Of a DNA stretch of 35,594 bases, positions 3,845-16,759 are shown piece by piece. Under the pieces are notes generated by a model, which was not told where the DNA came from, searched no databases, and saw only the letters and a list, made by a program, of their open reading frames with translations. Every line of letters begins with the position of its first letter. Position 1 is the first letter of the stretch. The translations under genes were made by a program, and so were the position numbers. Source of the DNA: Paracoccaceae bacterium (GTDB lineage Bacteria; Pseudomonadota; Alphaproteobacteria; Rhodobacterales; Rhodobacteraceae); contig REDZ01000097.1 in NCBI GenBank assembly GCA_007695345.1, forward strand, positions 1 to 35,594, read 5' to 3'.

Positions 3845-3869
3845 CTGCCCCTGCCCTTCGCAGGGGCAG
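3845..3869. repeat. Perfect GC-rich stem-loop (10 bp stem, 5 nt loop)
   Basis: CTGCCCCTGC-CCTTC-GCAGGGGCAG, intergenic between leuB 3' end and icd 5' end; no long T-tract. Confidence 0.75.
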
Positions 3870-3919
3870 CGCCCGCGAGGCGTGCAAGGGCGGGTGGGTG
3901 GGCACCCCGAGCGGGCGCT
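3868..3919 (+). repeat. Intergenic inverted-repeat element with G-quadruplex motif in the loop (copy 1)
   Basis: Arms AGCGCCCGC (3868-3876) / GCGGGCGCT (3911-3919); loop contains GGGCGGGTGGGTGGG (3888-3902). Confidence 0.75.
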
Positions 3920-13497: not shown

Positions 13498-15975
13498 ATG
13501 AACTTTCGCAAGGCGCCCGACCCGAACCCCAATCTGACCCGTGCCCTGCGCCGGACCCTTGCGGGGTTGTGGGCGGAGCGGCTGTTGCGCTGTTTCTGGC
13601 CCTTCGCGACTGTCCTTCTACTCGGCATGGCAATGCTGGGCTTTGGCGCACAGGATATCGTGCCCCCGATCTGGGCGATGTGGGGGACGATCACGCTGGT
13701 CCTGGCGATGGCGGCGGCACTGATCCTGGGCGTCTGGCGCCTGCGCCTGCCCACCCGTGCGGACGCGGCCGCTCGGCTGGACCACGCCCTGCCCGGACGC
13801 CCGCTTTCAGCCCTCGCCGATGCGCAGGCCATTGGCGCACAGGATGCCGCGTCGCAGCGGGTCTGGGCAGTGCATCTGACGCGGATGCAGGCGCGGCTGA
13901 GGGGCGCACGCCCGGTCCCTGGCGATCTGCGGCTTGCGCGGTTCGACTGGTATGGGCTGCGCTACATCGCCCTGACAGGGTTTGCCGTGGCGCTGATCTT
14001 CGGTAACCCCGCGCGCGTGATCGAGATTACAGAGATTGCGCAGATGCCCTCGCGCGCCGAAGCGGTCGGGCTTGGCCCGTCCTGGGAAGCATGGGTTCAG
14101 CCCCCCGCCTATACCGGGCGCCCCAGCCTCTATCTGAATGAGGTCGATCGCACCGCCCTGCAACTGCCGCAGGGCAGCCGCGTGACCGTCCGGTTCTACG
14201 GGCAGCAGGGGGTCATGTCCGTGCAGGAAGGGCTGTCAGGGCGCGAGGAATTCGACCCCGCTGACATGGCGCAGGATTTCGAGATCGAGCAATCGGGCCG
14301 GCTGAGCATTCGTGGCCCTGCCGGGCGCGACTGGGAAGTGGTCGCGCTGATCGACCAGCCACCCGAGGTCGCACTTGACGGTGTGGCAGAGCGGGAACGC
14401 GGCGGGCTGATGCGTCAGGACTTTGTCGCCAGTGACGATTATGGCGTGACCGGGGGCGAGGTGCGCGTCGCCCTTGACCTGGACGCTGTTGACCGCCGCT
14501 TCGGGCTGGAACGGGAACCCGAAAGCCGCGATGCGCTGACTTTGCCGCTGCCCATGCCGACCTCGGGCTCGCGCACCGAGATCGAGGATTCCTTTATCGA
14601 GGACTTTTCGGAACACCCATGGGCAAACATGCCTGTGACCGTCGCCTTCGCGGTCGAGGATGCGCGCGGCCAGCAGGGTGAGACAGAGCCGCGGCCGATG
14701 GTCCTGCCGGGTCGGCGCTTCTTTGATCCGATGGCCGCTGCCGTTGTCGAATTGCGGCGCGATCTGCTCTGGACGCGCGAGAATGCTCCCCGCGTTGCGC
14801 AGGTGATGCGTGCCATCAGCCACCGCCCCGAAGAGGCGTTTCGCTCGCCCGAAGCGCGTATCCGGTTTTCCGAGGCGCAGGACCTGCTGATGGCCAGCCT
14901 CGATACCGGTGGGCTGGACACAACAGCGCGCGATGACCTGGCCGACCGCATGTGGGATCTGGCGATCCTGCTGGAAGAGGGCGAGCTGGCCGATGCCCGC
15001 GAACGCCTGCGCCGCGCACAGGAGCGGCTGGATGAGGCCATGCGCAGCGGGGCCGACGAATCCGAGATTGCTGATCTGATGGAAGAATTGCGCGAGGCCA
15101 TGCGCGATTACATGCGCCAGCTTGCCGAGCAGCCCCGCGAACGCGGCGAGGCCCCGCCCGATGGCGACAGCATGGAAATCACGCAGGATCAGATTCAGGA
15201 CCTGCTCGACCGCATTCAGGAGCTGATGGAAGAAGGTCGCATGGATGAGGCGGCCGAGCTGATGGCGCAACTGAACGAATTGCTGGAAAACCTGCAGGTT
15301 GCCGAAGGTCAGGGCGGCGAAGGGATGCCCGGCAATGAGGCGATGGAAGGTCTGGGCGATGCGCTGCGCGACCAGCAGGAACTGTCGGATGACACGTTCA
15401 GCGACCTGCAGGACCAGTTCAGCAATGGCCACGACCAGCAGGAAGGCGAGACTGGCGAAGGAGAAGCCGGCGAAGGTGCGCCCAATGGCCTGACCGAGCG
15501 TCAGCAAGAATTGGCAGACCGGCTGCGCGATCAGCAGCTACAGCAACTGCCCGGTGAAGGCACAGCCGAAGGCGATGCCGCGCTTGAAGCGCTGGAGCGC
15601 GCGCAACGCGCAATGGAAGAGGCCGCCGAAGCACTGGAAGAGGGCGATACCGGCGAAGCACTCAGCCGTCAGGCCGACGCGATGGAGGCCATGCGCGACG
15701 GGATGCGCGCGATGAATGATGCCCAGGCACAGGACCAGCGTGAGAATGGCGAAGGCGATCAGGCGCAGGACACCGGGGATGGCGGGGATCGTGATCCTCT
15801 GGGTCGCGCACGCAATCAGGGTGGCGATGTCGGCACCGAAGACAGCCTGCTACAGGGCGAGGATGTCTATCGCCGCGCACAGGACCTGCTGGAAGAACTG
15901 CGCCGCCGTTCAGCCGAACTGGACCGCCCCGAAGCCGAGCTCGATTATCTGCGCCGTCTGCTGGACCGCTTCTGA
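13498..15975 (+). CDS. TIGR02302 / DUF4175 family protein, Glu/Gln-rich coiled-coil C-terminal half
   Basis: 825 aa; N-terminal hydrophobic segments, long Gln/Glu/Met-rich C-terminal region (QDQIQDLLDRIQELMEEGRMDEAAELMAQLNELLENLQ), located after lysA. Confidence 0.8.
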   Translation: MNFRKAPDPNPNLTRALRRTLAGLWAERLLRCFWPFATVLLLGMAMLGFGAQDIVPPIWAMWGTITLVLAMAAALILGVWRLRLPTRADAAARLDHALPGRPLSALADAQAIGAQDAASQRVWAVHLTRMQARLRGARPVPGDLRLARFDWYGLRYIALTGFAVALIFGNPARVIEITEIAQMPSRAEAVGLGPSWEAWVQPPAYTGRPSLYLNEVDRTALQLPQGSRVTVRFYGQQGVMSVQEGLSGREEFDPADMAQDFEIEQSGRLSIRGPAGRDWEVVALIDQPPEVALDGVAERERGGLMRQDFVASDDYGVTGGEVRVALDLDAVDRRFGLEREPESRDALTLPLPMPTSGSRTEIEDSFIEDFSEHPWANMPVTVAFAVEDARGQQGETEPRPMVLPGRRFFDPMAAAVVELRRDLLWTRENAPRVAQVMRAISHRPEEAFRSPEARIRFSEAQDLLMASLDTGGLDTTARDDLADRMWDLAILLEEGELADARERLRRAQERLDEAMRSGADESEIADLMEELREAMRDYMRQLAEQPRERGEAPPDGDSMEITQDQIQDLLDRIQELMEEGRMDEAAELMAQLNELLENLQVAEGQGGEGMPGNEAMEGLGDALRDQQELSDDTFSDLQDQFSNGHDQQEGETGEGEAGEGAPNGLTERQQELADRLRDQQLQQLPGEGTAEGDAALEALERAQRAMEEAAEALEEGDTGEALSRQADAMEAMRDGMRAMNDAQAQDQRENGEGDQAQDTGDGGDRDPLGRARNQGGDVGTEDSLLQGEDVYRRAQDLLEELRRRSAELDRPEAELDYLRRLLDRF

Positions 15976-15995: not shown

Positions 15996-16074
15996 CCCTG
16001 CCTGCATCCCGGCCTCTCCGGGCACGCGGGAGGGTGGGTGGGGCGTGCCCTGAGCGGCCGGGATGCAGGCAGGG
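15996..16074 (+). repeat. Intergenic nested inverted-repeat element with G-quadruplex motif in the loop (copy 2)
   Basis: Outer arms CCCTGCCTGCATCCCGGCC (15996-16014) / GGCCGGGATGCAGGCAGGG (16056-16074), perfect 19 bp; inner arms GGGCACGC (16020-16027) / GCGTGCCC (16043-16050); GGGAGGGTGGGTGGGG at 16028-16043. Confidence 0.85.
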
Positions 16075-16088
16075 CGGGCGCAACGCGA

Positions 16089-16115
16089 AAGGCCCTGCCG
16101 CGTGGGCAGGGCCTT
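16089..16115 (-). terminator. Putative intrinsic terminator of rpsD
   Basis: Perfect 11 bp stem AAGGCCCTGCC / GGCAGGGCCTT with 5 nt loop, about 24 bp downstream of rpsD stop on the minus strand; short T-run. Confidence 0.6.
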
Positions 16116-16138: not shown

Positions 16139-16759
16139 TCAGTTCTTCGCGTAGAATTCGACCACAAGGTTGGGTTCCATCTGCACTGCATATGGCACAT
16201 CGCCCAGGCTCGGCGTGCGCACGAATGTCGCGGTCATCTTGGAATGGTCGACCTCCAGATAGTCAGGCACATCGCGTTCCGCCAGGCCAACAGCTTCCAG
16301 AACGATGGCCAGTTGCTTCGATTTATCGCGAATCGCGATCACATCGCCTTCCTTGACGCGGTAGCTGGGGATATTCACCCGCTGACCGTTCACCGTGACA
16401 TGGCCGTGGTTCACGAACTGGCGTGCGGCAAAGACGGTCGGCACGAATTTCGCGCGATAGACCACGGCGTCAAGACGGCGCTCCAGCAGGCCGATCAGGT
16501 TTTCACCTGTATCGCCCTTGATGCGCTCTGCCTCGGCATAGATGCGGCGGAACTGCTTTTCGGTCAGATCGCCGTAATGGCCTTTCAGCTTCTGCTTGGC
16601 GCGCAGCTGTGTGCCGAAATCCGACATCTTGCCCTTGCGGCGCTGGCCGTGCTGTCCGGGACCGTATTCGCGGCGGTTGACGGGGCTTTTCGGGCGACCC
16701 CAGATATTCTCGCCCATGCGGCGGTCGATCTTGTACTTGGCAGACGTGCGTTTGCTCAC
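16139..16759 (-). CDS. rpsD: 30S ribosomal protein S4
   Basis: [64 protein letters not shown]4 domain [45 protein letters not shown]. Confidence 0.98.

Follow-up and report, generated by a model that had tools for sequence, protein, structure and literature searches.

The palindrome between a TIGR02302 family gene and rpsD in the window (the whole 35,594-nucleotide stretch of DNA analyzed) is one member of a dispersed family, far broader than the two copies found there. Each member has a near-perfect, locus-specific stem whose tip holds four GGG runs separated by single bases. The family may represent an undescribed kind of transcription end-stop across a bacterial family. The source genome is a 3.26-Mb draft in which the window forms contig C10; its nearest named relatives are Roseinatronobacter and Natronohydrobacter, soda-lake Rhodobacteraceae.

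Structure of the hairpin beside rpsD

The copy 2 inverted repeat consists of 32-bp arms that are 94% paired (15996-16027/16043-16074) around GGGAGGGTGGGTGGG (Table 1). The initial annotation had described a nested palindrome with perfect 19-bp outer arms and 8-bp inner arms. Both tiers are read directly from the sequence, and the inverted-repeat score of 26 is the highest in the window compared with 10–12 in 12 Markov shuffles. The G-rich core quoted at that time does lie in the innermost loop, except that its 16th G pairs in the stem and the loop is 15 nt. The two structural checks proposed with it were positive: RNA folding returns the same two-tier hairpin at −74 kcal/mol on either strand (z scores of −6.6 and −8.4), and the loop has a G4Hunter score of 2.69. 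When G-quadruplexes are allowed, the predicted fold of the plus strand retains the stem and gains a G-quadruplex in the loop. By sequence, conservation and prediction the tip has the features of a G4 element, with four runs of at least three Gs and short, conserved loops.

Table 1. Features of the two palindrome copies and of the genes and hairpin flanking copy 2
Feature	Positions	Strand	Description
Copy 1 abutting hairpin H2	3847–3867	−	GCCCCTGCGAAGGGCAGGGGC on the minus strand
Copy 1 type B hairpin H1	3868–3919	−	AGCGCCCGC...CCCACCCACCCGCCC...GCGGGCGCT on the minus strand
TIGR02302 family protein gene	13498–15975	+	365 bits, slightly below the curated cut-off of 394
Copy 2 outer left arm	15996–16014		19 bp, perfect with right arm, locus-specific sequence
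Copy 2 left junction	16015–16019		1x1 mismatch + CTC + 1x1 mismatch
Copy 2 inner left arm	16020–16027		GGGCACGC, 8 bp
Copy 2 G4 core/loop	16028–16042	+	GGGAGGGTGGGTGGG, 15 nt, conserved, G4Hunter 2.69
Copy 2 inner right arm	16043–16050		GCGTGCCC, 8 bp
Copy 2 right junction	16051–16055		mismatch + GAG + mismatch
Copy 2 outer right arm	16056–16074		19 bp
Separate short rpsD terminator hairpin	16089–16115		11 bp; U-tract on the rpsD strand only short
rpsD (30S ribosomal protein S4)	16139–16759	−	275 bits

The flanking genes converge on copy 2, and protein family matches for both (365 and 275 bits) bear out the placement given in the initial annotation. The element starts 20 nt past the TIGR02302 stop codon and lies beyond rpsD's own short terminator, a hairpin that is kept beside rpsD in relatives. 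The sequence directly after the copy 2 stem is CGGGCGCA, which contains no U-tract.

A dispersed family with a constant tip and private stems

The source genome contains 36 exact matches to the core GGGHGGGTGGGTGGG and 20 to a backwards-read control pattern, and inverted arms flank nearly all of the core copies listed, including copies 1 and 2. A covariance model built from 13 gap-free copies of the form represented by copy 2 (type A) gave 41 matches at E ≤1, corresponding to about 40 copies in the genome. The earlier description of a second copy was right in that copy 1 exists (3868-3919) with arms that differ from those of copy 2, but the pair belongs to this much larger set.

Type A stems are mostly 18–32 bp long with an outer sequence private to each locus. 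Their G-run tip does not vary between copies, and the inner arms next to the loop follow the consensus GCGC / GCGTG. In the 13-copy alignment 96.5% of the cells pair, and both sides have changed in 19 of 22 pairs. Outer arms compared paralogue against paralogue share a mean of 6.7 matches versus 6.5 for letter shuffles.

Among relatives, covariance-model matches range from 0 to 94 copies within the genus. Of 249 genera sampled from the family, 25 have a match to the type A model at E ≤1e-4; for the type B model the figure is 14 of 397. Nearly all matches read beyond the genus repeat the four-run tip, but their stems are shorter, differ in sequence and are often perfect. One genome of another genus (G083) holds ~20 or more copies. 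The stems of genome G015 are AAAGCGCC...GGCGCTTT with short T tracts, and locus-specific palindromic extensions of at least 3 bp continue beyond the conserved unit at 35% of its loci versus 7% for mismatched loci. At one source-genome site (L032, G000:C5 around 4719) a run of at least 15 Gs replaces the spaced core, where the G001 orthologue reads GGGTGGGAGGGTGGG; this may be a true variant, or sequencing may have produced the poly-G artefactually. Contig breaks are frequent at these hairpins in the draft genomes. Other long poly-G runs lie at contig ends of the source-genome draft, and poly-G matches there were put down to faulty assembly.

Rfam gave no gathering-threshold match in the window and no relevant hit for five loci at E ≤5. 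No earlier description of this G4-tipped hairpin family was found in the open-access literature.

Elements lie at gene ends and usually lack a U-tract

Gene context was taken from a home-made ORF caller trained on the window, genes outside the window being its predictions, and some counts pool orthologous copies. Placements in the source genome are ~16 convergent and 0 divergent, and G083 has 13 convergent versus 0 divergent. In several convergent pairs the element fills nearly the whole gap between the two stops. Tandem copies in the source genome typically begin 0–15 nt past the upstream stop codon. The expanded G015 set includes 4 divergent calls out of 27. A short G4 hairpin also occurs within ~20 nt of a start codon, adjoining the Shine-Dalgarno sequence, in several species (L078, L094 and L098), an exception to the gene-end location.

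The elements share with intrinsic (Rho-independent) terminators a GC-rich hairpin at predicted gene ends, right after stops and between convergent genes. They differ from them in mostly lacking a U-tract, in stems of up to 32 bp, in the conserved 15-nt G4 loop and in strand bias. Of the 23 tandem copies in the source genome, just 2 have at least four Ts within 8 nt after the stem. Of the four copies more than 40 nt from a stop, three come after a canonical terminator; no canonical terminator precedes the stop-adjacent copies. Ordinary intrinsic terminators with incidentally G-rich loops, already disfavored, are a very improbable explanation. Location at gene ends and the G015 stems with their T tracts are what they would account for, but not the scarcity of T tracts in the source genome, the loop identity far over chance and conserved between genera, or stems that reach 32 bp and more. 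The absence of a textbook U-tract agrees with the view in the initial annotation that the palindrome is no ordinary terminator.

In tandem gaps the G-runs mostly occupy the template strand

G-runs lie on the template strand in tandem gaps by 21:2 in the source genome and by 21:2 in other genera, the latter counted by hand after duplicates were removed. Overall 42 of 46 tandem cases have template-strand G-runs (combined p = 5e-9). The bias persists despite core flips at 2 of 23 orthologous sites and is weaker in the expanded G015 set (8:3). An RNA G-quadruplex on the transcript, as first envisaged, is not supported by these counts. Because in these cases the sense mRNA carries the C-rich loop, any G-quadruplex would be expected either in the template DNA or in antisense RNA.

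Stem mismatches are also asymmetric. Read on the G-strand, G.T exceeds A.C by 17:2 in the source genome and by 10:1 in relatives (27:3 together), counted in pattern-found copies only, that is, those found without a structural model; the G.T excess of copies found by the covariance model was set aside because it is biased by the model. Strand bias and mismatch bias both suggest that it is folding of the G-strand that matters, although a skew toward purines close to the tip could add to the mismatch bias.

Position alone fits a template-strand hairpin and a C-rich RNA loop alike. The main rival to a DNA barrier is an RNA C-loop hairpin affecting termination or stability, in which the sense mRNA would end in a stem exposing a (CCCA)3CCC loop, which would recruit a C-specific RNA-binding protein, Rho being one candidate, or block 3′ exonucleases. 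C-rich-loop sRNAs of the cuckoo/CcsR kind were considered from the literature as a candidate class and set aside. This RNA-level explanation is rather unlikely. It would draw on the C-rich loop of the sense strand in the 42 tandem cases, on closeness to the stop codon and on the type B form, in which the C-strand folds cleanly in context, the G-strand misfolds when G-quadruplexes are ignored, and a second, perfect hairpin of private sequence abuts the C-strand 3′ side (≥6 bp in 84% versus 2% of shuffles). The G.T mismatches of the G-strand are, however, A.C mismatches on the C-strand, and runs of exactly three, separated by single bases of free identity, suit a G-quadruplex better than a generic C-rich site. 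The Rfam searches of the window and the five loci also returned no matching family.

Stem pairing and G-runs are conserved while stem sequence varies

Orthologous sites were compared between the source genome and its nearest genome, G001 (91% nucleotide identity), and between G039 and G004. Over 21 comparable sites, 1 of 252 essential G-run positions has changed, a figure counted by eye from the comparison table, versus 10 of 63 spacer positions (p = 5e-7). The arms diverge by 4.7% from the sister genome compared with 13% in the flanks, and an arm alignment of the kind proposed in the initial annotation finds 11 compensatory double changes where 0.3 are expected. Variable arms, compensatory changes and G-runs kept while spacers change uphold its suggestion of selection on structure plus core over simple duplication. 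The core is inverted between two species at 2 of the 23 orthologous sites, and some orthologues have lost the core and retained part of the hairpin.

At the copy 2 locus the sister genome has both arms and G tracts. The prospect that sister strains would lack both, which was to count against the element, did not materialize for this nearest genome, but several distant relatives do lack the element here. In more distant species the gap beside rpsD contains G-run hairpins whose arms are unrelated and which in some cases lie on the opposite strand, or it contains no such hairpin. Relatives without the element show no visible replacement except the short terminator, and other relatives have up to two copies in this one gap. 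A different repeat, GTTGCTCAAAAGTGGGAACCGGTTTTGAGC, stands beside rpsD in one or two copies in G012 and G045 (L253, L255). An ancient element whose stem would have drifted under pairing constraint, with losses, fits this sequence pattern; repeated acquisition would fit as well.

Several candidate insertion events were examined and rejected. Flank-duplicating insertions at G001 L186 and L192 first seemed to have clean empty sites, but L192 retains the canonical inner stem. Core remnants remain in the empty-site cases of G004, which makes deletion an equally good or better explanation than insertion. The G001 element L294 faces a rearranged, partly type B site in the source genome instead of a clean empty site. 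No clean insertion event was found among the orthologous-site comparisons, and the apparent empty sites look like deletions because one arm and often core remnants persist.

These results bear on whether the family is a REP-like selfish palindrome, spread by an enzyme that acts on single-stranded G-strand DNA, with gene ends as tolerated insertion sites. REP/BIME elements with RAYT transposases are likewise dispersed extragenic palindromes of variable copy number, and REPs consist of a GT(A/G)G head and a conserved palindrome (PMC2817692). Compared by sequence features, the REP palindrome is conserved, whereas here the stem varies and the loop is constant; type A arm likeness between paralogues is no better than chance (6.7 versus 6.5 matches), and type B stems are partly conserved. 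A REP-like origin is unlikely. The 0–94 copies inside one genus, two copies per gap, patchy distribution across the family, strand-specific mismatches and inverting cores would all suit it, but the deletion-like empty sites do not, and neither arms that evolve more slowly than their flanks nor conserved G-runs are expected of a neutral insertion.

A candidate template-strand barrier

The explanation preferred here, tentatively and at somewhat less than even confidence, is that the elements are selected 3′-end barriers without U-tracts, in which a template-strand hairpin would be capped by a G-quadruplex. The placement at gene ends, the strand and mismatch biases, and the conservation of G-runs and of pairing speak for it. 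The stem would let the DNA extrude or hold the tip single-stranded, and on the template strand this tip would fold as a parallel G-quadruplex. The capped hairpin would halt RNA polymerase and the polymerases that follow, acting alone or behind a normal terminator, and between convergent genes it would insulate both sides. The weaker bias and the four divergent calls in G015, the absence of the element at the rpsD locus in relatives and the core-less orthologues count against this barrier.

A catalogue of G-quadruplexes spanning the tree of life reports that in bacteria they are enriched on the template strand beyond transcript ends (PMC12581993), and the family would be a structured example of that trend. 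If the barrier reading is true, it would define a terminator class with a template-strand DNA G-quadruplex in place of the U-tract and would offer a mechanism for the reported enrichment past gene ends. Dozens of natural replicates, with the core lost, flipped or changed in its spacers, are available for studying the role of a G-quadruplex at a gene end.

Two other repeat types resemble the family in part. The GGGAATC quadruplex repeats of Xanthomonas and Nostoc are stemless tandem heptamers near stops on the sense strand (PMC4692102). They too are dispersed intergenic G4 motifs near stops and are scarce between divergent genes, whereas each element described here has a single G4, which lies on the antisense (template) strand and is enclosed in a hairpin. 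The intrastrand triplex motif TM_ECO has a conserved stem, less conserved loops and no strand bias (PMC4666352). It shares with the family a G/C-rich, intergenic, non-B-DNA-forming character, but here the loop is constant, the stem variable and the placement strand-biased; an intrastrand triplex motif was ruled out on this opposite conservation pattern.

The range of 0–94 copies within one genus raises the question of how a loop sequence spreads when its stem does not. A minimal G4 core of ~25–30 nt could disperse and arm each site by inverted copying of the flank, through template switching or fold-back synthesis. Every copy of such a self-arming core would then share its tip with the others but have a stem of its own. 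This origin is doubtful, with hints in the absence of shared type A arms, the private abutting hairpin of type B, the G015 extensions and the mismatches between the inner and outer tiers.

Copy 1 and the type B form

Copy 1 is a two-hairpin type B element (3847-3919) placed between leuB and a monomeric isocitrate dehydrogenase gene. RNA folding of copy 1 with its flanks forms a hairpin on the C-strand and misfolds the G-strand, with G-quadruplexes ignored. The partly conserved type B stem reads AGCGCCC.C...G.GGGCGCT. In G279, from another genus, five type B copies (L432, L446, L450, L454 and L457) lie on a single 72-kb contig, C258, and none off that contig at the threshold used; this clustering suggests a transferred region.
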